Source: a virus. Taken from it: a DNA stretch of 50,202 nucleotides. Under the pieces are notes generated by a model. The model was not told where the DNA came from. It saw nothing but the letters and a program-made list of their open reading frames with translations, and made no database searches. Shown in pieces: positions 2,278 to 44,612 of this stretch. The translations under genes and the position numbers were made by a program. The DNA lies in the IMG/VR virus record IMGVR_UViG_3300045741_000124, positions 1-50,202 of that record. One strand, given 5' to 3'. Numbering within the stretch: the stretch's first letter is position 1; each line of letters begins with the position of its first letter.

Positions 2278-4725
2278 GTGATTGATTGGCGGAATTTTGA
2301 CAAGAAGCAGTGGCCATTGTGCCAGCAGTGCCCGTCGCTGAAGAACAAGTTCGTCCCCCCTGATATCGTGATTGGGGCACCACTGATGGAGGTTGGGGAG
2401 AGACCGGGGGAGACTGAGGTTAATGGTGGGAGAGTGTTCATTGGAGATGCTGGGAGAATAAACGATGGATTATTGGCTAAAGCTGGGACTCATCGGCGGT
2501 TTGTTAGTATTGCCAACACTGTTGCTTGTTACGCTAAGGGTAATACGACACCGACAACAGAGGAGATTGAGTGCTGCGCTCCAGTCCTTGAACAAGCAAT
2601 TGCAGATGCTAACCCCCGAGCCTTACTTGCTCTCGGCGGTACAGCTACCAGACGGCTCATTGGTGATCGACCGATCACGACATGGCGTGGAAGTATTATT
2701 GCCCGGTCGCGCCTTGTCCAGCTTGGAGAAGGCAGAGTGCTTGGGCCGGATACGTTCAAGTCAGGGCCACGAAGAGGTCAACTGAAGCCGCATAAGGTGA
2801 TGAAGGAAGTGGTGCAGCCGGAGGGGCTTCCGGTTGTACTGACACTGCACCCCGCTTCGCTGCCACGGACGGGGTTCGTTACGTATCCACTCGTGGTGCG
2901 GGACTTCAGGAAGGCAGTGAAGGTTGCCACGGGGAGTGAGTTGGTTGAGGTGGGGTCGGTGTTGGCACTCCAGCAGTCAGCGGAAGTGCTGGGGAATGTA
3001 TTGAGTAGGGTAAAGGAGGTGGTGCTGGATGTCGAAACGAACGGTCGTAGAGGCGAACTCACAATTGTCGGTGTGGCTCCAGATGTTCAACGCGGATTCA
3101 CCTTTCAGCCTACTCCAGAAGTTCTCTCAGTTCTCCGCCGTTGGCTCTCTCTACCCACCAATAGACTTATTGGTCACAACATCGGGTATGACGTTGCGGT
3201 TCTTGAGGACAACGGCATTCGAACTACTGCAAGTCTATGGGACACCATGCACGCCGCCCACTTTGACCGGGCCGATCTGTCAGGTGGAAAGACCGCTACC
3301 GACGACAGCGATTGGCGGAGGACGAAAGGGACGCAGCCCGCGAAAGCCCTAGATATGGTTGCCTCTCGACTGGGCGGGTATTACTATTACAATTGGAAGG
3401 AGCAGTTTCGGAGTGGATTGGAGCGCAATCCACACCGTTACTGTGCGCTCGATTGTACGTGGACCCGTGCGATATATGATGAACTCAGGCCCAAGTTTGA
3501 GCGTGAGCGACGACTTGAGGCGTTTGAGCAGGGGATTATGCCCGCTGTGCCGGTGCTACTCAGGATGCAGGAGGATGGGGTCAGGGTGGATGAGGAGCTT
3601 CGGGCTGAGTTGTATGGGTTGATGTGGAAGGGATGGCAGGAGGTTGAGGATCAGTGGACAGTGAAGGTGCCCACGGTGAGACCGGGGCAATCGGTTGCGC
3701 TCATGGATTGGTTCTACAATCATGAGGGACTTGAGCAGCAGTACAATGGACGTGGGGCTGAGAAGCGGAGGACGTTGGATGATGGGGCACTGGAGAAGCT
3801 GTTGCGGAAGTATCCCAAGCGGCAGGAGTTGCGGCTGCTCGCGGAGTGGCGTCACCTCAAGGGGATCATGGATAAGTACTTGAGCCCGGAGTTGTTCCGC
3901 AACGGACGCTTATATCCACAGTACAACTTGAGCGGCACGTTCACGGGGCGGCTCAGTGGTGGAGGTGAGGATGGATTCAACTTTCAAAATATCCCTCGGA
4001 CAGGGAAAGCTAATGAGTGTCCCAAGGGAATTGTGGCGTGTCAGTGTCACCGGCTCCGGGGACTCTTTCTCGCTGACGCTGGTGATTGGATGGTCGGATG
4101 TGCGGACTGGTCGCAGTTGGAGTACAGACTTGTCGCGATCTTGGCTGGAGAAGGGTGGCTCATTGACAGTTTCAAGGATCGTGCCTTCGACATCCACACC
4201 TTCACTTCCAGTGAACTCGGGGTGGCCCGCAATCCCGTCGCGAAGAACGTCAATTTCGCAATGATCAACTGGGCCGGGGCGGATAAGATTGCCGCGACGG
4301 CGAAGGTGGATATGGAGACGGCGATGGGGTTTCTCCAGCGGATCAGGGCGCGGATTCCTGCGATCAGCCAGTATCAGGCGGGGCTGTTGGACTTCGTAAG
4401 GAAGAATGGGTATGTGCAGACACCATTCGGGTGGAGGATGCACCACCGGGTGCAAAGGGATGGACTCTACAAACCCACAGAGGTAGTGGCGGGGCCGCAT
4501 CAGTCTTGTGGTGGTAGCATGATGAAGATTGCTCTGGCGAGAGCGGCTGAGGCTGGGTTGAAGTTGAGGGTCACGGTGCATGACGAGTTGGTGGTTAGCT
4601 TAAGGGGGCCGGAGGAGTTGCCCAAGCTGAAGGAGGTAATGGAACGTGGATATGAAGAAGTTGGAGGATGGGGATGCTATGCGGAGGAGGGAAGTGGGAG
4701 AAGTTGGGCCGAGGCTAAGCACTGA
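2278..4725 (+). CDS. Family A DNA polymerase with N-terminal uracil-DNA-glycosylase-like domain
   Basis: An 815-residue replicative polymerase with three modules. Residues about 10-215 match family 4 UDGs: paired Cys (CQQCPSL), GERPGETE, VFIGDAG, further Cys in NTVACYA and EIECCAP (probable Fe-S ligands), RG and a HPAS motif. Next comes a DEDD 3'-5' proofreading exonuclease: DVETN, HNIGYD and YCALD. The palm and fingers follow: motif A ADWSQLEYR, motif B with RNPVAKNVNFAMINWAG, motif C VTVHDELVVS. The usual Tyr-Gly of the O helix reads Asn-Trp-Ala-Gly. GTG 2278 follows a purine-rich GGGGGGAAAGGG stretch. It should copy the phage genome. Confidence 0.95.
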   Translation: MIDWRNFDKKQWPLCQQCPSLKNKFVPPDIVIGAPLMEVGERPGETEVNGGRVFIGDAGRINDGLLAKAGTHRRFVSIANTVACYAKGNTTPTTEEIECCAPVLEQAIADANPRALLALGGTATRRLIGDRPITTWRGSIIARSRLVQLGEGRVLGPDTFKSGPRRGQLKPHKVMKEVVQPEGLPVVLTLHPASLPRTGFVTYPLVVRDFRKAVKVATGSELVEVGSVLALQQSAEVLGNVLSRVKEVVLDVETNGRRGELTIVGVAPDVQRGFTFQPTPEVLSVLRRWLSLPTNRLIGHNIGYDVAVLEDNGIRTTASLWDTMHAAHFDRADLSGGKTATDDSDWRRTKGTQPAKALDMVASRLGGYYYYNWKEQFRSGLERNPHRYCALDCTWTRAIYDELRPKFERERRLEAFEQGIMPAVPVLLRMQEDGVRVDEELRAELYGLMWKGWQEVEDQWTVKVPTVRPGQSVALMDWFYNHEGLEQQYNGRGAEKRRTLDDGALEKLLRKYPKRQELRLLAEWRHLKGIMDKYLSPELFRNGRLYPQYNLSGTFTGRLSGGGEDGFNFQNIPRTGKANECPKGIVACQCHRLRGLFLADAGDWMVGCADWSQLEYRLVAILAGEGWLIDSFKDRAFDIHTFTSSELGVARNPVAKNVNFAMINWAGADKIAATAKVDMETAMGFLQRIRARIPAISQYQAGLLDFVRKNGYVQTPFGWRMHHRVQRDGLYKPTEVVAGPHQSCGGSMMKIALARAAEAGLKLRVTVHDELVVSLRGPEELPKLKEVMERGYEEVGGWGCYAEEGSGRSWAEAKH

Positions 4726-6573: not shown

Positions 6574-6935
6574 TGGAGACTAAAGGGTTGCTTGGGCCGC
6601 TGATTACTCCAGATGTTCAGTGGTTCGCCCCGTTTACGAAACATGGACAAGGAGGAAGAATGGTTGAGCACACTATTACAGTTACTATTAGTTGCCATTA
6701 TTGTGACCACCGGGGTGTGATCCATGTCAGCGCCCCGACTCAGTGGAACTACTTGGGGGAGAAGCTAGTGTGTCCCGATCATACTATCGTCGTGGACCCC
6801 CCACCAACGGTCGATACTGCCGGGAGAGTTGAGCAGACCCCGGAGCAAGAGTGTTACCCGAGAGGTGGGACAGAGCATCCGCCGCAACTCGACCCGGATA
6901 GCTCGTCACCGCCCCAAGGATATTTTGCTGTTTAA
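6573..6935 (+). CDS. Zinc-finger protein whose 3' end overlaps the convergent virion gene
   Basis: It has 120 residues from GTG 6573, which overlaps the previous stop by one base behind GGGGGAGG. An internal ATG 6660 with AAGGAGG would give 91 residues. SCHYCDHRG and LVCPDH make a CxxC...CxxH site. The last 50 residues are Pro/Asp/Ser-rich and lie antisense to the 3' end of the giant minus-strand gene (6784 onward), a 152-base tail-to-tail overlap. The N-terminal part is convincing. The tail may simply be read-through sequence. Confidence 0.55.
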   Translation: METKGLLGPLITPDVQWFAPFTKHGQGGRMVEHTITVTISCHYCDHRGVIHVSAPTQWNYLGEKLVCPDHTIVVDPPPTVDTAGRVEQTPEQECYPRGGTEHPPQLDPDSSSPPQGYFAV

Positions 6936-9900
6936 TTGGGCCGGGGTAGATGTAGGGTTTGAAGCCGAGGGCAGCGGTGAGGTGGTCCCAGTCGTTGTCA
7001 ACAGGGCGAGGGAAGCCGAGGGCGTAGTTCCACGATTGGGATGAGTGGCCGAACTTGCTCCGAAGGAAGTCAATGGTCTCCTTCCCCGCCACCTGTGCGT
7101 AGTAGTCCTTCACGGAGTTCGGTGGGAAGGGGATGATGTTGCGGGCAAGGCGCAGGGCAGCGAGTCCGGGCTCCTTCGTCACCATCTTCGCTTGGGTCGA
7201 GTCGGTCAGCAACTCCTTGGCATCCTCGTATTGAGTGAGGGCGGGGCCACCAGTGAAGAAGAGGTTGTGGATGAAGGGAATCCAATCACTGGTGTCAATG
7301 TTGAGCATCGCTCCCACGGAGTAGACCAACTCAGCACCAATAGCCCAACGGGTTCCAATCTCAAGGTAGCGACGGGCAGCACGAGGGGTTGCTCCGTGGA
7401 CATCGAGAGGGGCACGGGTAAGGGAGTAGAGGGAGTTGAGCATGTTGACTGGCCAGCTACCATACTGACCAAGGAGGCGTCCAGTGGTGGAGTCATAGAA
7501 GGGGGCGGCATTGTGGCGAGCATAGGTGAATACATCATTGTCTTGGTGAAGAGAGGCAACGCGACGAAAGAACTCGTGGGAGTCCCGGGAGGCAAGGCCA
7601 CGGAGGCTGGCCAACTCGGTTGGGGAAGTGGCAAGGGTGTCGAGGCCAGTGGTTTCAATCAAGTCACTCCATGCGGCGTCGGTCTCTCCTGCTCGCTTGA
7701 ATCGTGTTATCCCACGCTCAGCGGCTCTCTCAGCAGTGCGGATCACGAAGAGCCGGTCGAGGGTATCGTTGAAGCGATAGGGGGCGGTCAGGATCTTCTG
7801 GATGCGGCGTATCCCAGCCCATGCGAATGGGTCCACGTTGACGTTGTGGACTTCGGTATCGGAGCGCATCAGTGCTTCTTGGTGGGTGTAGCGTTCTTGG
7901 AGCGACTTGAAGTTCTTGATTACATCCCACCACGCGGGGACCGAATCGACGGCACGGAAGCGCGGGGAGATTTGGAGAATGGAGGTGGCTGTGAGGTGGC
8001 GCACAGCACGCATTACGTTAGCACCAAAGACGGCAGTGCGGTTGGCCTGCATCCAAGCCTTTGCAAAGGAGAGCGAGTCACCCCGAATGGCATTAATCCC
8101 CATCTTCTTGGCAATCTCCGTGATCATGTCGGGGATGCCAGTGCGATCGACGAGGTGGGAGTCGAGTTTGTCCATCCACTTCGCGATGTTGTTGAGGTGA
8201 CGGGCAATAAACAGGGAGCGGTTGGAGCGTCCACGAACCTCGGCCACTTCATTATCGCTGGGCTGGTTGAGGAAGCGCCGCACCTGCTGGGTCAGGAACT
8301 CGCCCACCTGTTGAGGCATGATTGGAATGCCATCCTTGGAGGTGAACTTGATGATGTCACTGAGGTGGTTGATGTCCTTGGCAGTGTATTTATAGTTGTA
8401 GACCCCGTGGATGTAGGATTCGATGGTACGGAAGAAGTCCCCGTGGTTGCCAATGGCGAATTCGTTCTTGATGTGAGTGATCCACGGGTCCTCCGTGGCT
8501 TGACCCTTCGTGCGGGGCTTGGTGAAGTAGGGATTCTCCGCATCACGAGTGAGGGGGTTGGTGGGGGTGGGATCGTAGGCTGTGGGACCACGACTGTATT
8601 GGCGATTTTGAGGATAGTAGAAGAAGGGGATCTTCTTCGCAACCCTGTCGATGCCGCCCTCAGTGAAGAGTTCATCGGAGTGGCGCTTCCAAGTTACGAA
8701 GAGGGCCTTGTACTCGGAATCGGTGAGGCCGTGGTCATCGGCGGCTTTAGCAGCCAACTCCGCGAAGGCTTCCTGTTGATCCTCCCACGTTGCTCCCCCC
8801 TTGATCATGTCCCACATTGTGTTGTTGACTTGGCGAGCAGCAGCATCCATGCGGAGGCCACGACGGTAGCGTTTGAAGACCCCGCCCGTGCTGAACTCCT
8901 TGCCCAAGCTAGTGAGTCGCTCGTTCGTGGCAAGGTTAGCACGGTCAATGGCCTCGGAAATGGCACGGTGGGTCTCAACGATGCCGAAATCGTGGCCGAA
9001 GATGGCTTCGAAGGAGCGGCCAATGTACTTGACTGCATTGGAGGGGATTGCACCATAGTGGCGCACCCAGTAGTTCATGTCATTGACAGTGGGCTTGGAG
9101 GGGTCGAGAGGGGTGGTGGGGAGGTTGGTGAGATCGTCAGAGTTGCCACCGCCACTGGGGGTGAAGCGCGGACCATTGCCATCGAGACGGAGTTGGAACA
9201 AGAGTCCGGTTGGGGTGAGGTCGGGAGCGAGGTTACGCTCACCACGCAGGTAGTCCATCCCCATCGCGAGGGTCTCGGGAGTGGGATAGTCATGGGTTTC
9301 GCCGGTTGTGAGGTCGGTGAGACGGTAGTAATCCCGGCCCTTGCCCAACTTCGCCCCCGTCTTGCGGATCAGCGTCTCGGGGATAGACCGCTTACGCTCA
9401 ACCTTGAGGTCGGTGTCAAGGGAGGCATTGACGAGTGCTGGGAATACATCGGCGGGACGCTCAACTGACCCGGCGGCTGTGCTGAAGGGGTAGAGTTCGG
9501 CATCCTGTTTCCCAACCAGTGCGCGAGCGAAGCGGCGGAGAGTGAAGAAGGAGTGCTTGGCACCCATGGGGGTGTTGGACTCGGTGAGCATCTTCTTGGC
9601 GGTCAAGCGAAGGGCGGTGTGACGGGCCGCGAGATCGGCTGGCAGGGAGGCGAGGTGCTCAGCGGTCATTGCATTGGGACCCTTGGAGGCGTTGCCAATA
9701 CGATTCAGGGCTTCCTCGAATGTCTTGAGAGGGATATCACGGCGAGCCTTGATGGTCTCGTTCTCAACCTCATCAGGGAGAGTAGCACGAGCAGTGTTCT
9801 CATCCGCCAGTGCCTTGCGATAGCGGGCGTTGGTGAGATCGGAGATGGAATTGAGTGAGGTGATCCGACTCTTCAATGCCTCCATCTCAGCTTGGGTAGT

Positions 9901-12900
9901 CTTGAGCGCGGTAGAGGTCTCGTCGAGCTTGGCGAGAGCACGATTGCGCTCCTTCGGGCTCATCTTTGGGGCGCGTTCGTTGAGGTCACGGACGGCGGCG
10001 AGGTGAGCTTCGAACTTGGCCAGCTTCCCCTTCAGTTGGGCATTGAGAGTGTTGAGCTTCTTGATGGTAGTGAGATCGGGCTTGGGTTCACGAGGGGCCT
10101 TGGGGGTCTTAGTGGTCTCCTCGGTCTTGTTGACGGTGGGGCGAGGCTTCTTCTCAGCGGGGCGCTTGATGCGGTCGAGGTCCGCGAGACGCTGGGCATA
10201 GGAAGTGGGGACGAGGGGCTTGCGGCCACTGTCGCGCAGGAGGGCGAAGCGGGAGGCATCACCAGCCACGTAGGGGTGGATGCCATCGGCAATGAGGGTG
10301 GTCGTGAGGGAGAGGTGGCCCGTGAGGGGGTCCTCAAAGGTGGCGCGTTCGGTGGGACGGGAGCCAATGAGGATGGCGAGGGCACGGCGCTTCGCAGCTT
10401 CAAGGGCATCGGCTATGGGAGGCGGGGAAGTGCGAAGGGCAAGGGTGGAGGCATTGGTTTCGGGCGGGACACCACCATCTTCGGACGTGGGGATGAACTT
10501 CCGCGCCAATTGGAGCAGCATTCGCCAATCGTCTTGGGTTGGCTCTCCCTTAATGGCTTTGAGTTGCTCAAGGGCAGCCTCGGCTACGGGGATGTCATTC
10601 TCAAGAGGATCGCCCGCCTTGACATTGTAAGTAGCATCATCAACCTTCTCAATGTAGCGTTCGAAGTCGCTCTGACTGAGACCACTGACGGCAGCGAGGG
10701 CATCATCAGTGGTGCCCATTTCACTGGCATCGACGCTCTCCCCAGCGGCACTACTATTGCGGATGAATTTGAGCAACTCGCGGGCAGTGGCCTCGGGGAT
10801 ATCTGCGGTGAGGCGATAGGTATGGGTACCTTTGCTGACATGGGAGGAGAGGGGCTCACCGTAGTAAGCACGGGCAATGATCTCGTCGTCAGAGGGTGGG
10901 GGCTGGCCCTCGGTGGGCTCAATGGAGTGGTAGATGCGACTGAGTGTGGAGAAGGCGCGACGGAGGGATGCTTCCTCAGCAGGAGTTTCGCCACCGAAGC
11001 CGCTTCCCCCATTCTCCTCAGCGAAGCGAGCAGCGTGGAGGAGGTCAATGTATTCGCGACGCTTGAAGGTGAAGTGTGGGGGACTGAGGGGGACAGTGGG
11101 GCCGTTCAACTGTTGATCCCATAGCTTATACTCGTCGCTATCGTGGACGAGATCGAGGAATTGAGTGATGATGGGGTGCTGGGCAGGGTTGTCACCCAGC
11201 TTGAAACCAGCACGGTTGAGGATGTTGGAGGCCCATGCTACGCCAATGTTATCGGTGATGGCACGGTGGATGGTGGTGTAGTCGGCACGGGTGAGGGGGA
11301 TGGAGCCAGTGGGTTGGCGCAGTGACCACTCACCAGTGCTACGGTTGTAGATTATGGTGCCATCACGGAGGGTGATCTTCCCCTCTCCCCGGGGAAGTTC
11401 AACGGGGTGGGCGGTAGAGATGGTTCCTAGGGCAATCTCGGGATTGCCGCCCATGATGCGCTGGATGGGGCGGTCGACGAGGCGGCGCAGAGGGCCGGGG
11501 AGAAGGGAGCGCAGACGGGAGAGGCGGGAGTTGGCCCACTCATCGTCGGGGCGGTAGATGTGGCCCGTTGTATCGCTTGCGTCAGTAGGGGGAGTAGTGT
11601 CCTGCTTCCTCGTAGCTTCGCGTCGCTGAGCAGCCTCAGCGGGATAGGCGTCGTTGAGTTCCCGATCAAGTTGCTGGATTGCAGTGGTGGCGGACTGGAA
11701 GTCCTCGTCACTGGCATCGGGGTTACGGAGGGTGTCCCAGTTGCGCTGGAGGTCGGCGTTGATGTCTGTGAGGGGACGGGGGCCACTTCGGGTTGGAGTA
11801 GAATCTGGATGGTCTCTAAGATAGTTCTCTGCTCGGGTCTTAAAGTATTCTACCTCCTGTTTGGCTTGCGCTAAGGAGCGGACCCGGGTATCATTCCCCC
11901 ACTCCTTACTCCAATCAATTGTCTTTTCATCTCGCCCGCTTAAAGCTGCAAGTTTGGCCTCATACTCCTGAACTGTTTGTTTATTCTCCCATTTTATATA
12001 GGCTATTCTTTCAGATGAATCTGGCTCGCCCCTTGGGGGGCGATTTTGGGCAACGGGGGTGGGTTCGGTGGGCGTTGGAGCCGTCTCTGCGGGCGGAATG
12101 GTAATATCATTCTTCGCTTTAATAGTCTTGAGTATGAACTCCTGCTCACTCTTGGTGAAATTCCTGCGGATACCCCCAGTATCACCAGCTACGAGCATTT
12201 TATACGCAGCTTCACCCTTCTTCTTCCCCATTGCCTGCGTGAACTGGTCCTTCATCCAATCTAGCTGGTATTCGATGGGGCCGCGATCTGATTTTGCGGG
12301 GCTGATTGGCTCTGGTGGAACTGGAGCGGGTGCAGTGGAAGTGGGGGTTGGAGTTACATCAGGAGTAGGAGTGGGAACGGGACGGAACCCCGCATTCCAC
12401 GCATCATTAACATTACCCTCCCCCAGCTTCTTACCCTTTGAGCCAACGACGGAACCATCCGGGGCAATGGTGAACTCGACCTTCCCATTCGACCACTTTT
12501 CACCGGGAGTGAAGGTGGTGGGGCGACCATCGGGAACGGGAGTGGCTGCGGGGGGTGCAAGGGGGATGGCTGTGGTGCCCTTGGTGGTCTTCTTGGGAAC
12601 GGGAATGATGTCCGCTTTGGTTAGCTCAGGGAGATCAATGTGGGTCTGCTCGGGTGGGGCGGCAGAGGCAATGGACTTGAGCTTGGCTCGGACACTCACA
12701 CCATAGTCGCGGACCTGTTTCTCCGACATCCCAGTGTGCTTCATTACGAAGGTCAGGTAGTCGGCGTCACGACGGGAGGGCGTCTGCTGTGCGGTGATAT
12801 AAGCGGCACGGTCGAGGTCACTCTCGAACTTGGTAGTGAAGCGCCGAGTGCCGTAGCTGTAGCGAGGGGCGGCTTTGGGGAGATCGGCAGGGAGAGTGGG

Positions 12901-14151
12901 GCCAGTGGGGGCAGTGAGAGTCGCCGGAGCCGCCCCCGCCGAAGTGGGAGTGGCTTCGGGGGTAGTTGTGGTCGGAGTGGGCGCAGTTACAGTCGGCTCA
13001 GGTGCAGTGGGGGTCACTGGGGTGGGAGTGGGAGTGGGAGTGGGGACAGGAGTAGTGGCTGGAGTGGGAGCAGACTCAACCGGGGCCGCAGCAGTAGTAA
13101 CTGGGGCGTTGGTAGTGAGCACACCCCGGAGAGCCGCAATCTGATTCTGCTGTTCGGGGGTGGGGTTGGGGATCTTGCTCAACGCATCAAGGGCAATTTG
13201 GGCATTGGCAATGGGGTTGGTGGCGGCGGCAGTGGCATCCTTGACGGCTTGCTTCTCCACCTTCTTCCGCACCGCGACTACTTCGGGATCAAGGGGTGGG
13301 CGCTCCCGGGGTGTGGCCCCCGTTGCAGGGGGCATGGTGATGCGCTCACGGGGTGTTGGCTTCGGAGCAGCCTCGGGGGTGCCGTAGGATTCCTTTGCCA
13401 GATCAAATGCTCCGAAGACGGCACCACCAATGGCACCACTGATAACGTCGGGGAGAGGGGTCTTGACTGGGGGCTGACCCAACGCGCCAGTTGCGGTACC
13501 AGCGAGTACCTCTCTACCAAACTTACCAACCCCTTTGAGTCCCTCGGGAGCGCCGAGGGCACCGAAGATGGCACCACTCTTCAGCCCCTCGTAAGCACCG
13601 CGAAGGCGATCCTCGGCACTCCCCGGTTGCAGTGCGCCCAGTGCGCCGAGGGAGGCCGCAGTGGTAACGGCGCGACTGGCAGTACCGGCTGCGGAGAAGC
13701 CACCAAGGATGCCTGTTGCGGCTTTGTCAGCCTTGGCTCCAGCGGCGAGTAGTTCCCCAACCTTGGGGATTGCACTCAATCCCTCTTCAACTGCCCCGCC
13801 GCCAGTAGCGAGAGCGGCAATGGTTGGGACTATTCCCCCAATACCAGCAGCATAGGGATGGGCCTTCTCGACTGCACTCCGCTCCGCTTGGCCGAAGTAG
13901 TTGAGAGTGGGGTTCTTGGAGAGGAGAGTAAGAGGGGAGACAGCAAGAGACCCAGCACCCCGAATGAGATCACCACCGCCGTGGAGTAGGCCAAGGAAAG
14001 CGGCCTCTCCCATTCCAAGAGCACCAGAGTCGGGTTGGGGACCAATGTCGATACCAGCGGAAGCGAGGCGGTCGGCAAACCCCGGCTTATCAGGGTCTAG
14101 GCCGTAGCCCTTGATCTTCTCTCGCAGCTTGTCGTCGGTAACGTAGGACAT
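6784..14151 (-). CDS. Giant internal virion protein (2,455 aa)
   Basis: The largest gene, about 15% of the genome, and last in the virion operon, three bases after the preceding gene. From its size and place it is probably an internal or ejected virion protein. The N-terminus has Gly/Ala-rich, possibly membrane-active helices (residues about 40-260). Residues about 340-425 are a low-complexity Pro/Thr/Ala linker with PTPTPTP runs, with a shorter one near 590-620. Residues about 1340-1440 form a coiled coil. The C-terminal third, from about 1690, is globular. I see no RNA polymerase or clear muralytic motif. The end SRQYRPLVGGPRR looks like a genuine C-terminus. Confidence 0.8.
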   Translation of the reverse strand: MSYVTDDKLREKIKGYGLDPDKPGFADRLASAGIDIGPQPDSGALGMGEAAFLGLLHGGGDLIRGAGSLAVSPLTLLSKNPTLNYFGQAERSAVEKAHPYAAGIGGIVPTIAALATGGGAVEEGLSAIPKVGELLAAGAKADKAATGILGGFSAAGTASRAVTTAASLGALGALQPGSAEDRLRGAYEGLKSGAIFGALGAPEGLKGVGKFGREVLAGTATGALGQPPVKTPLPDVISGAIGGAVFGAFDLAKESYGTPEAAPKPTPRERITMPPATGATPRERPPLDPEVVAVRKKVEKQAVKDATAAATNPIANAQIALDALSKIPNPTPEQQNQIAALRGVLTTNAPVTTAAAPVESAPTPATTPVPTPTPTPTPVTPTAPEPTVTAPTPTTTTPEATPTSAGAAPATLTAPTGPTLPADLPKAAPRYSYGTRRFTTKFESDLDRAAYITAQQTPSRRDADYLTFVMKHTGMSEKQVRDYGVSVRAKLKSIASAAPPEQTHIDLPELTKADIIPVPKKTTKGTTAIPLAPPAATPVPDGRPTTFTPGEKWSNGKVEFTIAPDGSVVGSKGKKLGEGNVNDAWNAGFRPVPTPTPDVTPTPTSTAPAPVPPEPISPAKSDRGPIEYQLDWMKDQFTQAMGKKKGEAAYKMLVAGDTGGIRRNFTKSEQEFILKTIKAKNDITIPPAETAPTPTEPTPVAQNRPPRGEPDSSERIAYIKWENKQTVQEYEAKLAALSGRDEKTIDWSKEWGNDTRVRSLAQAKQEVEYFKTRAENYLRDHPDSTPTRSGPRPLTDINADLQRNWDTLRNPDASDEDFQSATTAIQQLDRELNDAYPAEAAQRREATRKQDTTPPTDASDTTGHIYRPDDEWANSRLSRLRSLLPGPLRRLVDRPIQRIMGGNPEIALGTISTAHPVELPRGEGKITLRDGTIIYNRSTGEWSLRQPTGSIPLTRADYTTIHRAITDNIGVAWASNILNRAGFKLGDNPAQHPIITQFLDLVHDSDEYKLWDQQLNGPTVPLSPPHFTFKRREYIDLLHAARFAEENGGSGFGGETPAEEASLRRAFSTLSRIYHSIEPTEGQPPPSDDEIIARAYYGEPLSSHVSKGTHTYRLTADIPEATARELLKFIRNSSAAGESVDASEMGTTDDALAAVSGLSQSDFERYIEKVDDATYNVKAGDPLENDIPVAEAALEQLKAIKGEPTQDDWRMLLQLARKFIPTSEDGGVPPETNASTLALRTSPPPIADALEAAKRRALAILIGSRPTERATFEDPLTGHLSLTTTLIADGIHPYVAGDASRFALLRDSGRKPLVPTSYAQRLADLDRIKRPAEKKPRPTVNKTEETTKTPKAPREPKPDLTTIKKLNTLNAQLKGKLAKFEAHLAAVRDLNERAPKMSPKERNRALAKLDETSTALKTTQAEMEALKSRITSLNSISDLTNARYRKALADENTARATLPDEVENETIKARRDIPLKTFEEALNRIGNASKGPNAMTAEHLASLPADLAARHTALRLTAKKMLTESNTPMGAKHSFFTLRRFARALVGKQDAELYPFSTAAGSVERPADVFPALVNASLDTDLKVERKRSIPETLIRKTGAKLGKGRDYYRLTDLTTGETHDYPTPETLAMGMDYLRGERNLAPDLTPTGLLFQLRLDGNGPRFTPSGGGNSDDLTNLPTTPLDPSKPTVNDMNYWVRHYGAIPSNAVKYIGRSFEAIFGHDFGIVETHRAISEAIDRANLATNERLTSLGKEFSTGGVFKRYRRGLRMDAAARQVNNTMWDMIKGGATWEDQQEAFAELAAKAADDHGLTDSEYKALFVTWKRHSDELFTEGGIDRVAKKIPFFYYPQNRQYSRGPTAYDPTPTNPLTRDAENPYFTKPRTKGQATEDPWITHIKNEFAIGNHGDFFRTIESYIHGVYNYKYTAKDINHLSDIIKFTSKDGIPIMPQQVGEFLTQQVRRFLNQPSDNEVAEVRGRSNRSLFIARHLNNIAKWMDKLDSHLVDRTGIPDMITEIAKKMGINAIRGDSLSFAKAWMQANRTAVFGANVMRAVRHLTATSILQISPRFRAVDSVPAWWDVIKNFKSLQERYTHQEALMRSDTEVHNVNVDPFAWAGIRRIQKILTAPYRFNDTLDRLFVIRTAERAAERGITRFKRAGETDAAWSDLIETTGLDTLATSPTELASLRGLASRDSHEFFRRVASLHQDNDVFTYARHNAAPFYDSTTGRLLGQYGSWPVNMLNSLYSLTRAPLDVHGATPRAARRYLEIGTRWAIGAELVYSVGAMLNIDTSDWIPFIHNLFFTGGPALTQYEDAKELLTDSTQAKMVTKEPGLAALRLARNIIPFPPNSVKDYYAQVAGKETIDFLRSKFGHSSQSWNYALGFPRPVDNDWDHLTAALGFKPYIYPGPIKQQNILGAVTSYPGRVAADALSHLSGNTLAPGSAQLSRQYRPLVGGPRR
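13019..13046. repeat. GTGGGA tandem repeat with G-quadruplex potential
   Basis: Plus-strand G runs of three to four bases are spaced by T or AGT, forming a near-perfect hexanucleotide repeat. On the minus strand it encodes the Pro-Thr dipeptide run of the giant virion protein. At least four G3+ runs with loops of 1-3 bases meet the canonical G-quadruplex pattern. Confidence 0.6.
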
Positions 14152-40655: not shown

Positions 40656-40982
40656 ATGGAGAATACGAAGATCACGTTCAGTATCAACGCGGGACCGAGA
40701 TTGGAGTTGGAACTCGACTCCGCACACTCGTTCAGCACCTTCCACGATCTCGTCGAGAGACTGAAGGAGCGTGGGGCTACGGGTATCAAGGTCAATGGCT
40801 TCACTTCTGAAGAGAAGCCCAATGAGGTGGAAGCGGTGGCAAACTCCATCATCCGTGAGTTTGAACGGAAGGGTGTGAGTATCAGGATGAATGGGGCGAG
40901 AGTGGGGCTGGATAGTCCCATTCCTACCAGTGGGGGTGTTGTGACCACCAGTGGTGAAGCCAAGGGTGGACGCCGAGCATAG
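40656..40982 (+). CDS. Candidate ubiquitin-like modifier (108 aa, Gly-Gly near C-terminus)
   Basis: ATG 40656 follows a GTAGGAGAAG site. The N-terminus predicts strand (KITFSI), strand (RLELEL), helix (STFHDLVERLKERG), strand (GIKVNGF), then a second helix and a strand. This is a beta-grasp-like start with an extra helix. It ends GEAKGGRRA, so residues 104-105 are Gly-Gly followed by three residues that a JAB peptidase could remove. No downstream ribosome site explains the GG codons. It lies just upstream of E2-, JAB- and E1-like genes. The fold is not proved, and it may be unrelated. Confidence 0.4.
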   Translation: MENTKITFSINAGPRLELELDSAHSFSTFHDLVERLKERGATGIKVNGFTSEEKPNEVEAVANSIIREFERKGVSIRMNGARVGLDSPIPTSGGVVTTSGEAKGGRRA

Positions 40983-40992
40983 TTGGGAGTTT

Positions 40993-41235
40993 GTGTTGTG
41001 AGTAGTTGAGGACAACACTATCACACATACGATGGCACTAGTCGACGGTAGCACTCAGTACCAAGTATCCAAGTTGGGAGAAAGGGAAAAGTCAGACCAA
41101 GCACTAGGCACATACGATGTAAATGGTGGTGGTAGGGGAGCACCAGTTAAGAACTGGGCTAGATTATTGGTGGTGGTGGTTGGATTCAATGTCCAGCCAC
41201 CACCACTCTCTTCTTTGAGCCCCCCAATAGTGGGG
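40993..41235 (+). promoter_or_regulatory. Hairpin-rich spacer before the E2-like gene
   Basis: The 282-base gap has four hairpins. They are GTGTTGT/ACAACAC (40993-41018), CCAGTT-AAG-AACTGG (41143-41157), a 13-bp stem with one G-U (41171-41183 with 41193-41205), and CCCC/GGGG (41222-41235). No gene is seen. It separates the candidate modifier from the conjugation enzymes and could set their relative expression. Confidence 0.55.
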
Positions 41236-41264
41236 AGTTGAGACAAGAGAGGAGGTGAGAATAA

Positions 41265-42347
41265 GTGAGAGCAGGGACTTTTGTTAATCGACAGCGATTG
41301 CAGGACTCCAACCGTATTGGTGAGCAGATTACTGCCTTCGTCAGGCAGCATGAACAACACCTCAGACGAGCCAATGAGTTGTTACAAGAGGCTGAACGGA
41401 TGAAGGTGGAGCGGGAGAAGGTTGGGGAAAAGTGGGAAGAGCACAGGAAGAGATTGAGGGAGTTGAAAGGGTTTGCTGGGCAACTGCAAGGGCAAGTGTT
41501 GAAAGTGCCCTTCCCACGGCAAACGGTGGGAAGTGTGGAGTTTGAGGGTGAGATACAGTTTAATTACTCGTTTAGGGAGGGGAGGTTTAATCTCCCTACC
41601 TACTCGGGTAACGCTATTCTCCCCGATGGGACCCGGGGATATGAGAGAGCCCCCCACTATTATGTTCATAGCCCGGAAGAGCCAAAGATATGCCTTGGGA
41701 GTGCTGCTGGAACGGTTGAACTGTTGCTACAACAGTGGCGTCTCAATGAGGCAGTTGATATGGTTCTGAGGGTTATGACTAGGGCACCACAAGTTGGGGA
41801 TTCTCCATTTCACAGTGTGGCTGAGTATCAGAACTTGGTGAAGTGTGAGTGTGGGTTTGTTTACTCACTGCTTTGTAGTGGGGAATGTCGAATGTGTAAT
41901 GTCTCGGGGAGAAGCAGGGTTGGGTTGTATCTTCCCGAGTTGACACGGGTTGCGACTACTGATGTGGTTGAGACTGCGACTGCCACTGTGGCATCTGTGG
42001 AAGAGCGGGATAGTTGGGGACCGGGAGTTTGCCCTGAGTGTGGTTTAAGCAGTAACAATTTGCGGAGTTTCCCCACTTCCAACTACCCACGCAATCGTTA
42101 TTGTGTGGAGAGGTGCTTTGACCAGAGGATGCTTTGTAGCTGTGGGGCTATCATCAGGACGGATACGGTAAATCGAGTGGAAGGTAGACAATTGTGTAGG
42201 AATTGTTTCGGTGCGCTTTACTTCATATGCCGTCATTGTGCGGTTACTTATCTCAGAACACATGCACACTATGGGAATAGGGATAATCAGTTCATTGCCT
42301 GTAGTGAAGCGTGTGTGATGGCATTGGTCATTAATCAGAACTTCTAG
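41265..42347 (+). CDS. E2-like (UBC-fold) protein with C-terminal zinc-finger cluster (360 aa)
   Basis: GTG 41265 follows GGAGGTGAG. Residues 10-75 are coiled coil. Residues about 80-175 fit a prokaryotic E2-like fold: strands GSVEFEGEIQFNYSFREG, a proline-containing loop, PHYYVHSPEEPKICLGSA with candidate active Cys143, then helices with LLLQQWRLNEAVDMVL. Residues 194-350 hold over a dozen Cys in CxC and CxxC pairs (CECG, CPECG, CSCG, CRNC, CRHC), a possible E3-like or substrate-binding part. The JAB and E1 genes follow directly. The E2 call is by motif and context, not by search. Confidence 0.6.
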   Translation: MRAGTFVNRQRLQDSNRIGEQITAFVRQHEQHLRRANELLQEAERMKVEREKVGEKWEEHRKRLRELKGFAGQLQGQVLKVPFPRQTVGSVEFEGEIQFNYSFREGRFNLPTYSGNAILPDGTRGYERAPHYYVHSPEEPKICLGSAAGTVELLLQQWRLNEAVDMVLRVMTRAPQVGDSPFHSVAEYQNLVKCECGFVYSLLCSGECRMCNVSGRSRVGLYLPELTRVATTDVVETATATVASVEERDSWGPGVCPECGLSSNNLRSFPTSNYPRNRYCVERCFDQRMLCSCGAIIRTDTVNRVEGRQLCRNCFGALYFICRHCAVTYLRTHAHYGNRDNQFIACSEACVMALVINQNF

Positions 42348-42386
42348 CTTCACTTCTAGAATAACCTAGAGGAACAGGAGGTGTGA

Positions 42387-43382
42387 GTGGGTATCAGGAT
42401 TATTTACAAGAGGACGGAGTGGCTCAAGACTCAGCAATGGTGTAAGTGGGCTGGGTTGAGTCCAGAGGGGAAAGGCTCGGTCACTGAGGTAATGTGGCTG
42501 GGGAGAGCGGTTAGGGATGGGGGGAGTGAGGATATCTGGATTGATGAGGTGAGGTTCCTCCACAAGCAGAACAAGGCAACTGGGGGAGAGTGCTCCATCA
42601 GTGCTGATGAAATGGCGGATTTTATTGCCATGATCATTGCTGAGGGTGGAGATCCAATGGAGTGGAACTACTGGGGACACTCCCATGCATCAATGGGGGC
42701 GTTCCAGAGTGGACAGGATATCAGCAATACGAGAGAGAGGTTTGAGCAGAAGCCTTGGGCTGTTGCGGTTACTCATAATGCCAAGGGTGATGCTTATGGG
42801 GAACTCACTATGTTCCAACCCTTCTATGTCAGGGTGGAGAAGGTTCCAGTGCTCATTGAGTCCGTGGAAGAGGTGCTGAGTCCAGAGGAACAGATGGCGA
42901 AGAGTGAGGTTCAGGCGTGGAATGATCGCGTCAGTAAGGAGGTGACTGCTACTCACTATGCTGGGGCAGTCACTTACTTTCCCGGGGAAGGAGGGTGGGG
43001 TAGTGGAGGCACCGAGAGGGTTGACAAGAAACGAGAAGAGAAAGTGGTGGGCGAAGCAAAGGGAAGCCCGTCAAAAGCGGAAGACCTCCGGAGTGCTACC
43101 CTGTCTTTCGTAGGTGAGATGGATGAGGGGCAGACGGATGCTACACTCAAGGAGTATGAAGGGGAGGAGATTGAGGTTGATCTCCCTACCGACTACGTTG
43201 AGTATAGGGTAAGGGCAGGGGAGTTGGAGTGGAATTCACTCACCTTCAATGGTGGATTCAAGAGAGTGAGTGGGCTCTTGAGGAAGCAACATGCGCTGAG
43301 TGCATTCATCAGGAGAGAGATGGAGGGGAAAGAGGTGCAGTATAGGGAGTTCACCATAGGAGGGGATTTCCTTGTCGATTAG
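42387..43382 (+). CDS. JAB/MPN-domain metallopeptidase (331 aa)
   Basis: GTG 42387 follows AGGAGGTG. The JAMM signature is complete: Glu34 in VTEVMWLG, then WGHSHASMGAFQSGQD with His98, His100, Ser108 and Asp111 (HxHx7SxxD). JAB proteins cleave ubiquitin-like modifiers from precursors or conjugates. After about 160, a charged linker leads to a second, unidentified domain (about 245-331). The E1-like gene overlaps its end by 11 bases. It probably matures or removes the modifier. Confidence 0.85.
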   Translation: MGIRIIYKRTEWLKTQQWCKWAGLSPEGKGSVTEVMWLGRAVRDGGSEDIWIDEVRFLHKQNKATGGECSISADEMADFIAMIIAEGGDPMEWNYWGHSHASMGAFQSGQDISNTRERFEQKPWAVAVTHNAKGDAYGELTMFQPFYVRVEKVPVLIESVEEVLSPEEQMAKSEVQAWNDRVSKEVTATHYAGAVTYFPGEGGWGSGGTERVDKKREEKVVGEAKGSPSKAEDLRSATLSFVGEMDEGQTDATLKEYEGEEIEVDLPTDYVEYRVRAGELEWNSLTFNGGFKRVSGLLRKQHALSAFIRREMEGKEVQYREFTIGGDFLVD

Positions 43383-44103
43383 CAACCTTATCAGTAGTGA
43401 TGAGGGAGTGGAGGTAGTGGGAGAGGGGCAGCAGTTTGCCCCTCTTTCCATCGTCATTGATTACAGCAGGCAACAGGAGTTTGTGCCACCACTGTTGAGG
43501 GAATCGCCTGTTGCGATAGTGGGAGTGGGGACTACGGGGAGTTGGCTCACAATGATGCTGGTGAGGATGGGGTTTACTAATATCACTGTGTTTGATAATG
43601 ATGTGGTGGAGAGCCATAATATTCCCGCTCAATGGCACTCCCCCCTTGAGATTGGGGAGAGTAAGATCATGTCGGTGAGGAAGGGGATCAGGAAGATGGG
43701 ATTCCCTACTCTCGTTTCAATCGACAATGCTGTTAATGAGTTTACTAATATGCTGGACTTCGGGACAGTGTTCGTCTGCACTGACTCGGTTGAGTCAAGG
43801 CGAGTGATTGCAACACAGGTGTTCAAGGATCAGGGTGAGTTGGTGGATTTGCGAATGGGGTTGGAATATGGTAGTGTGTTGTTCAGCCCCCCTCTGTCAC
43901 ACGAGGGTTATCTCAAGACACTGGAAGTGGAGATGGAACCGGAGCCTACTTGTGGCAGGCGGGCACTGTTGACGGATGCTCTAGCGCTCACTTCCAATGT
44001 GTTGGCAATGTGGTTGCACTCGAAGCGCACTAATGAGCCGCTCCCCCAACGCTACTATTGGAACTTCGGGAATGGGGGCGGGGAAAGGCAGAGTGAGGAA
44101 TGA
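43372..44103 (+). CDS. ThiF/E1-like adenylating enzyme (243 aa)
   Basis: TTG 43372 lies behind AGGAGGGG. The E1 nucleotide fold is clear: VAIVGVGTTGSWL, the ATP/Mg motif FDNDVVESHNIPAQ, GESKI (catalytic Lys) and VFVCTDSVESRR (Asp). PTCGRRALLTDALAL contains a candidate thioester Cys. The zinc-binding CxxC pairs of ThiF/MoeB are absent, as in many conjugation-type E1s. It should adenylate the C-terminal Gly of a ubiquitin-like protein. It overlaps both neighbours. Confidence 0.85.
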   Translation: MSISNLISSDEGVEVVGEGQQFAPLSIVIDYSRQQEFVPPLLRESPVAIVGVGTTGSWLTMMLVRMGFTNITVFDNDVVESHNIPAQWHSPLEIGESKIMSVRKGIRKMGFPTLVSIDNAVNEFTNMLDFGTVFVCTDSVESRRVIATQVFKDQGELVDLRMGLEYGSVLFSPPLSHEGYLKTLEVEMEPEPTCGRRALLTDALALTSNVLAMWLHSKRTNEPLPQRYYWNFGNGGGERQSEE

Positions 44104-44291
44104 CAGTTAAGGAATTGATTGAGAAGTTACAGATGATTCCACAAGACCTACCAGTGGTGATAGAGAGCTTCATGAATGCTCTTGATCTCACTGATGATCC
44201 TCTCCTCTCTGTAAGAGTTGAGGAATGTGTGGTAGAAAAGGATTCAACAGAACTATCCCCAAAACAGTGTGTATTGAGTTTAATACCATAA
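44100..44291 (+). CDS. Conserved-type small phage protein (63 aa)
   Basis: ATG 44100 overlaps the E1 stop as ATGA. It begins MTVKELIEKLQMIPQDLPVV, a pattern I recall from many phages (a helix, then 'PxDxPVV'), and ends in strands (SVRVEECVVEKD). Role unknown. The overlap puts it in the conjugation operon, but this family occurs elsewhere without E1 genes, so it need not be part of the system. Confidence 0.65.
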   Translation: MTVKELIEKLQMIPQDLPVVIESFMNALDLTDDPLLSVRVEECVVEKDSTELSPKQCVLSLIP

Positions 44292-44391: not shown

Positions 44392-44426
44392 CCGATTACT
44401 CCCATTTTTGGTGGGGAGTGATTCGG
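44392..44426 (+). promoter_or_regulatory. Second hairpin overlapping the tRNA-like start
   Basis: CCGATTACTCCC (44392-44403) pairs with GGGAGTGATTCGG (44414-44426) with one G-U and one bulge. Its last bases are the first of the tRNA-Ser-like element, so the two structures exclude each other. Confidence 0.5.
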
Positions 44427-44522
44427 AGAGGTTACTATGGGAGGTGTATGGTATGGGATTCGAGTTCCCACACCCTACTGGTCAGGGGTGAATGGTAGCG
44501 GGTTCGATCCCCGCCCCTTCCA
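44425..44522 (+). tRNA. tRNA-Ser-like gene (anticodon CGA)
   Basis: A class II cloverleaf can be drawn. The acceptor GGAGAGG pairs with CCCTTCC with one A-C mismatch, and the D stem is ACTA/TGGT. The anticodon stem TGGGA/TCCCA is perfect with loop TTCGAGT, so the anticodon is CGA. A long variable arm (CACCC...GGGTG) follows. The T stem GCGGG/CCCGC closes TTCGATC. Discriminator A is followed by CTA, not CCA. The variable region is long (27 bases) and the acceptor imperfect, so it may be non-functional. Confidence 0.5.
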
Positions 44523-44612
44523 CTACTACTATTACTACTATTGTTACTATAACTACTATGGAACAACTAATGCACTAATAAGGGTGCATTGGTATGGAAT
44601 GGAGAGCGGAAG
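44523..44612 (+). other. ACT trinucleotide-rich spacer
   Basis: After the tRNA-like element comes a pyrimidine-rich run of CTA/ACT triplets (44523-44560), then a short spacer to the next ribosome site. No gene or clear promoter is seen. Confidence 0.5.

Follow-up and report, generated by a model that had tools for sequence, protein, structure and literature searches.

A phage genome carrying a likely self-contained ubiquitin-like conjugation cassette

Organization of the locus

The IMG/VR virus record IMGVR_UViG_3300045741_000124, analysed over its full length of 50,202 nucleotides (the window), contains four genes that likely make up a phage-encoded, self-contained ubiquitin-like conjugation system. 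From 5' to 3' on the plus strand, these encode a candidate ubiquitin-like modifier (40656..40982, 108 aa), an E2-like conjugating enzyme (41265..42347, 360 aa), a JAMM/JAB metalloprotease (42387..43382, 331 aa) and an E1/ThiF-like adenylating enzyme (43372..44103, 243 aa). The initial annotation, which had proposed a conjugation cassette here, placed the four open reading frames (ORFs) correctly and described three of the genes rightly as tightly spaced or overlapping: the gap between the E2 and JAB genes is about 40 nt, the JAB and E1 ORFs overlap by 11 nt, and a Shine-Dalgarno-like AGGAG(G) precedes all four. Scanned individually with Pfam, NCBIfam and PADLOC-type models, the E2-like, JAB-like and candidate modifier proteins gave no significant family match and would therefore go unannotated. 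For their assignment, we used profiles built from relatives in other phages without the window sequences (relatives-only profiles), which were run against 370 window ORFs, whereas chance occurrence of motifs was estimated with residue shuffles and with 270 window ORFs.

The E1-like and JAB-like proteins

Judged by sequence, the identities of the E1 and of the JAB protein are certain. The E1 adenylation core seen in the initial annotation is recovered by Pfam ThiF (PF00899, E=1e-18), so that the ThiF fold is backed by a sequence profile, and the relatives-only E1 profile ranks this protein first among the ORFs (E=2.7e-36). The adenylation residues G51, G53, D75, D77, N83, Q87, K98, D138, R143 and R161 are kept, and the predicted catalytic cysteine, Cys194 (43951..43953), falls on a position that is a cysteine in all 85 non-gapped phage E1s. 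Among the named families, ThiF/MoeB models match best, yet they stay below their cut-offs (TIGR02356, 39.3 of 275.25 bits; TIGR02355, 33 of 376.55 bits). In an E1 tree, 27 of 28 phage E1s, including that of the window, group with two genome copies apart from the MoeB-like enzymes and from those of the plasmid-borne PRTRC operons (support 100/98), the exception among the phages being a 595-kb phage; the window and PRTRC E1s form long branches, so that their exact placement is unsure, and the highest identity of the window E1 to any other is 31%.

The JAB protein is likewise the top ORF of its relatives-only profile (E=1.8e-20), which supports a JAB fold at the sequence level. Its JAMM motif HSHASMGAFQSGQD (42678..42719; H98, H100, S108, D111) is complete, as the initial annotation had it, and is the sole match among the 270 ORFs; such a motif turns up anywhere in about 6% of residue shuffles of the whole window, and its chance in the shuffled JAB ORF is 5e-5. 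Each of the four residues is kept in 84 of 85 sequences, and the general-base column of the JAB alignment is an invariant glutamate. The best solved match of the JAB family profile, with the window protein included, is RPN11 (5e-12). Adenylation, E1 thioester formation and JAB isopeptidase activity are thus predicted with support from these residues and profiles, and the JAB protein would serve both in processing of the ubiquitin-like protein (Ubl) and in de-conjugation.

Relatives in other phages

The E1 search of phage records pointed to crAss001, FpV4, Xanthomonas phage PhiXhv-12 and the 595-kb phage, in which the E1 gene is neighboured by Ubl-like, E2-like and JAB genes, except that PhiXhv-12 is without JAB. 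The order Ubl-E2-JAB-E1 of the window is found in crAss001 (gp79-gp76), FpV4 (gp53-gp50) and dozens of IMG/VR phages. Scanning IMG/VR with an alignment of four E1s yielded 177 relatives, of which 80 were kept. JAB is present in 83 of 85 E1 loci (within 150 nt in 73, upstream of E1 in 79) and an E2-type motif, PH...C[LF]G or related, in 60 of 80 genes upstream; the latter counts a loose motif of which a few matches may be chance, and all these loci were gathered via E1, so that the counts describe E1-bearing phages and not all phages, with near-identical contigs counted repeatedly. Queried as single sequences, the window E2 and JAB (phage records) and the window E2 and E1 (IMG/VR) returned no E2 or JAB relatives and only weak E1 matches.

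The small proteins preceding E2 in the relatives end in KGNS, KGNK, EGGR, VEGGQ, VAGGF, DGGLY, KKKGG or ASGG. In Pfam, these Ubls match ThiS (2.8e-5) and SAMP2 (2.3e-4), and their profile matches SAMP2 structures (1.2e-5). Together with the same-order relatives and the conserved catalytic residues, these matches uphold the proposal of a phage conjugation cassette, but not the novelty that was claimed for it. The gene order in particular is not new, because PRTRC plasmid operons as well as crAss001, FpV4 and the IMG/VR phages share it. The phage cassettes are annotated merely as thiamine biosynthesis/ThiF, metalloprotease or hypothetical proteins, and we found no paper naming the four-gene cassette in phages in a literature search that was thin on subscription journals.

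In the main alternative, E1 would adenylate a ThiS/MoaD-like sulfur carrier for thiocarboxylate formation, JAB would act as its trimming protease, comparable to CysO/Mec+ or siderophore operons, and the thiocarboxylate would thiolate a nucleotide or cofactor. This would agree with the ThiF/MoeB models as best named-family matches of E1, with the ThiS matches of the relatives' Ubls and with the functional cysteine that ThiF enzymes also have. However, we regard sulfur transfer as quite improbable, because the E2-like gene is a constant partner and family scans of the cassette revealed no rhodanese, cysteine desulfurase or sulfur-acceptor synthase. Moreover, the tree sets the phage E1s apart from the MoeB-like enzymes, JAB is nearest to Rpn11, a deubiquitinase, and Iyer et al. 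(2006; PMC1779556) describe thiamine and molybdopterin operons as being without JAB. The match to a sulfur-transfer pathway that would have spoken against the initial annotation was not seen.

FpV4 gp53 (locus L003, 655-1524) has a Ubl-like domain followed by SGGRG and an extension of about 200 aa, so that maturation would need a cut after Gly-Gly, and a protein in locus L022 (3495-3911) consists of two tandem Ubl-like domains, each ending in GG (VKGGS, VEGGQ). In Allochromatium humboldtianum DSM 21881, a 528-kb genome contig (L088, 5986-8519) carries a reshuffled E1-JAB-E2 arrangement followed by a dCTP-deaminase-like ORF; the proteins of this copy also occur in a viral contig (L021). A protein of about 380 aa with the reverse-transcriptase motif YTRYADD lies downstream of E1 in six loci, and five neighbours of the relatives' cassettes match Pfam RVT_1.

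The E2-like protein

For the E2, the assignment is good, though less strong than those of E1 and JAB. Against the relatives-only E2 profile, the 41265 protein scores best of the 370 ORFs (E=0.0036), with the next ORF at 1.4. Its putative active-site loop PHYYVHSPEEPKICLG (residues 130-145, 41652..41699) contains the predicted catalytic Cys143, and P130, H131, C143 and G145 are invariant across the window E2 and 14 phage relatives. The motif has a chance of 0.0017 in the shuffled ORF and of about 20% window-wide, so that it is no proof by itself. An hhalign comparison over residues 125-188 gave E=0.0011 at a low probability of 20%, and one member of the E2 family matches Pfam UQ_con at 0.0052. 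A family profile including the coiled coil described below returned coiled-coil matches only and was replaced by a core-trimmed profile, for which seven of ten PDB matches are E2s. The profile aligns the cysteine region with UBE2W and UBE2N; UBE2W gives the best alignment, at HPHVYSNGHICL, and in the two alignments inspected the catalytic cysteine lines up with that of UBE2W (E=0.07 or worse). At this site UBE2W has HPH, and the window reads APH. Most E2s have HPN where UBE2W has HPH. Functionally, Ube2W is described as attaching ubiquitin to protein N-termini (PMC3778709).

Several results weigh against an E2. None of the PDB matches is significant (E>=0.07), the AlphaFold2 model has a mean predicted local distance difference test (pLDDT) of 51 and is confident only in the N-terminal helix and at residues about 131-173, and neither Foldseek with this model nor a Pfam scan of the protein gave a match. 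The UBC fold around Cys143 that the initial annotation had expected is thus not visible in the model, whereas the family profile does point to E2s, at an E of 0.07. One could accordingly read the protein as a coiled-coil zinc-binding scaffold in which the CLG motif arose by chance, and the window-wide motif frequency would fit this as well. We consider such a scaffold improbable: the protein is the top match of a profile made from relatives alone, it stands at the right place in the gene order, hhalign aligns residues 125-188, though at low probability, and the P, H, C and G are invariant.

Around this core, the putative E2 is extended on both sides. The N-terminal long helix (residues 3-69, 41271..41471; pLDDT 75-93 over residues 11-60) is a probable coiled coil, similar in kind among the relatives. 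The C-terminal zinc region (41844..42314) holds 17 cysteines, arranged as CxC-x7-CxxxCxxC at residues 194-211, as CX2C-X20-CX3C with treble-clef/TRASH-like spacing at 256-284 and again at 322-350, and as CXC-X17-CX2C at 291-314, from which about four zinc sites are predicted. Among 31 E2-like proteins checked, Cys-rich tails occur only in PhiXhv-12 (20 Cys in other spacing) and in three loci, L008-L010 (five Cys). The E2-zinc fusion, put forward as new in the initial annotation, is therefore rare, but it is not unique. From its position, the zinc region may be an E3-like or substrate-binding part. An idea that goes further, and which we hold to be possible though somewhat doubtful, is that of a phage E2-E3 fusion: a single protein would combine the active site of an E2 with tandem zinc fingers for ligation or target binding, so that a compact ubiquitin-like machine could reprogram host or viral proteins during infection, within a large unnamed viral class of conjugation systems with HPH-type E2s.

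The E2 site is not intact throughout the family. In crAss001 gp78 (L004, 992-2326), which occupies the E2 position, the cysteine is missing (TLAIG versus FCIG in FpV4), which suggests a dead E2; since some relatives seemingly are without the E2 cysteine, E2-mediated conjugation may be confined to part of the family, a further point against our interpretation. Tandem E2-like pairs were seen in eight loci, mostly large-phage contigs, with one protein of 580-700 aa carrying PH...CHG/CQG and another of 260-470 aa carrying [CSAP][GP]H...CLG or similar.

The candidate modifier and the gap before the E2 gene

The 40656..40982 gene occupies the position of the Ubl genes in the relatives, and its product ends in SGEAKGG-RRA, i.e. 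Gly104-Gly105 plus three residues. The Gly-Gly tail alone means little, because 14 of 270 window ORFs end in GG plus 0-3 residues. Nevertheless, AKGGRRA resembles the AKEGGR, AKGNK and VKGGS tails of the relatives. The 50 best Foldseek matches of its AlphaFold2 model (pLDDT 61, predicted template modelling score 0.46) are beta-grasp proteins of the Ub/SUMO/NEDD8 type, several of which belong to complexes or fusions; the best E is 0.007. Two observations count against this assignment: the protein has no significant match to the relatives' Ubl profile (E=2.6), and the AlphaFold alignment included real Ubls, which favours that fold. For the latter reason, we take the low-confidence model as support for a beta-grasp, short of proof; the fold anticipated in the initial annotation thus appears in the model and not in the sequence profile. 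The modifier identity is supported by position, Gly-Gly tail and low-confidence beta-grasp model, with the sequence score excluded from that basis.

Between the modifier and E2 genes lies a gap of 283 nt, in which folding (z-score -5.07) and a terminator scan revealed a hairpin of 17 bp followed by a T-rich tail (41169..41207, +). The hairpin could act as a partial terminator, keeping modifier mRNA above enzyme mRNA, and a lower expression of the enzymes than of the modifier would suit a tagging system. A 69-aa ORF in the gap (41032-41241) overlaps the hairpin without an obvious ribosome site and is probably no gene.

The separation by the gap and the hairpin would also fit a scenario in which the three enzymes use another modifier, either a Ubl of the host or some other protein of the phage, and 40656-40982 has no connection with them; the missing profile match and the frequency of GG tails by chance agree with it. 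This seems unlikely to us, given that relatives have a small Ubl at the same place, that the tail and the beta-grasp model resemble those of a Ubl, and that no other small protein adjoining the cassette fits. The ORF at 44100-44291 was rejected as modifier, as it has no Gly tail.

Genomic setting

Given its direct terminal repeat of 127 bp, the record is probably a full-length tailed-phage genome. The minus strand encodes terminase, portal, major head protein and structural proteins, and the plus strand carries the replication genes: a fusion of uracil-DNA glycosylase (UDG) and DNA polymerase A, a primase/helicase-like protein, a PD-(D/E)XK exonuclease and a Sak4-like annealing protein. Adjoining the structural genes, the cassette sits close to where the plus-strand block begins and opens the replication-gene block. 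In the relatives, the identified neighbours are largely genes of DNA metabolism, such as UDG, PD-(D/E)XK proteins, exonucleases and helicases. Single-sequence searches of phage records and IMG/VR found no close kin of the phage, and a TerL search for sister phages led to one remote contig only.

In the fusion protein (2278-4725, +), the UDG domain is N-terminal to the family A DNA polymerase (Pfam UDG 3.8e-14, DNA_pol_A 1.8e-31); crAss001 and FpV4 also have UDG genes in the vicinity of the cassette, and UDG ranks high among the neighbour families of the relatives. A tRNA-Ser (CGA; 44425-44523, +) follows shortly downstream of the cassette and a tRNA-Gln is found at 1727-1800. The 2455-aa protein at 6784-14151 (-) is likely to be an internal or tail protein of very large size.

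Discussion

Taken as a conjugation system, the cassette would work in the following way. JAB would trim the modifier after Gly105, removing RRA, and E1 would adenylate Gly105 with ATP and then hold the modifier as a thioester on Cys194. From E1, the modifier would pass to Cys143 of E2, a step with good though indirect support, and E2 would join it to amino groups on proteins of the host or the phage, with its coiled coil and zinc fingers standing in for a separate E3 or target adaptor. JAB could later take the modifier off again. Here, we infer both the use of the 40656 protein as substrate and its transfer to protein. As to a role during infection, our guess would be that the cassette serves to take over the host or to regulate replication proteins at an early stage, because it opens the replication block and the neighbours in relatives belong largely to DNA metabolism.

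So far, bacterial ubiquitin-like tagging has for the most part been treated as a defence against phages (Bil, CBASS) or has been found without assigned role on plasmids (PRTRC). Here, the kit sits on the phage side, where it is common: a single scan gave 177 loci, and carriers include crAss-like, Flavobacterium and very large phages. Which proteins phages tag, and why, has thereby become testable, as crAss001 and FpV4 are isolated phages and the Allochromatium humboldtianum DSM 21881 copy is located on a chromosome-sized contig.

With regard to the defence systems, Bil (BilABCD) resembles the window in that Ubl, E2, JAB and E1 are encoded together in a ubiquitination-like operon (PMC11354881). 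BilA has two Ubl domains, BilD paired adenylation domains plus a Cys domain, and BilB a Cys-Glu-His-His motif (PMC11354881); in contrast, the window E1 has 243 aa with one ThiF match, no Cys-Glu-His-His follows C143 and no two-domain Ubl was seen. Type II CBASS (Cap2/Cap3) shares the E1, E2 and JAB functions, but unites E1 and E2 on one protein. A role in defence or counter-defence, as in Bil, Bub or type II CBASS, is a further reading that would be compatible with the conjugation mechanism above; the tagged proteins would then belong to competing phages or to the immunity of the host. The enzyme types are the same and the window E1 matches PADLOC E1-E2 models; nevertheless, we find such a purpose rather unlikely, as no CD-NTase, effector or Bil-type two-domain Ubl was recognised near the cassette and the identified neighbours are replication genes.

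Closer to the conjugation cassette proposed here are the PRTRC plasmid operons of Paraburkholderia, Cupriavidus, Sphingomonas, Methylomonas and Piscinibacter, with the order ParB-E-C-F-B-A-ThiF (E or F unnamed in some records). We read this as Ubl (C), F, E2 (B), JAB (A) and E1 (ThiF), which gives the Ubl...E2-JAB-ThiF order of the window. The C protein ends in G-x-KG, the B protein in one operon (L115) has the E2-like APFFNVWSQGKVCVGN, and the phage JAB profile matches PRTRC A (E=2.8e-6). On the other hand, the window fails the NCBIfam PRTRC cut-offs (PRTRC_ThiF, 37 of 144.75 bits; A, B and C without match), and PRTRC profiles built here find among the window ORFs only ThiF (3e-10), with no match for A, B and C. 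Pfam and NCBIfam recognised no ParB, E or F among the cassette and nearby genes scanned, which are part of the window ORFs, and unlike the window E2, the PRTRC B read has no zinc region. A PRTRC-B-like gene followed by two genes, the second ThiF-like, was also noticed in the 33-kb Burkholderia phage BgVeeders33. Iyer et al. (2006; PMC1779556) describe bacterial Ubl-JAB-E1-E2 operons, and the phage case in the passages used here is a tail-assembly Ubl and JAB pair; equating their operon type 6d with PRTRC is our own step. The other phage cassettes share genes, order and catalytic residues with the window, a divergent member of the group, which differs from them by its short E2 with about four predicted zinc sites and by the long branch of its E1. 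We therefore regard these cassettes as a widespread and apparently unnamed phage version of PRTRC-type conjugation, whose gene order was already known.

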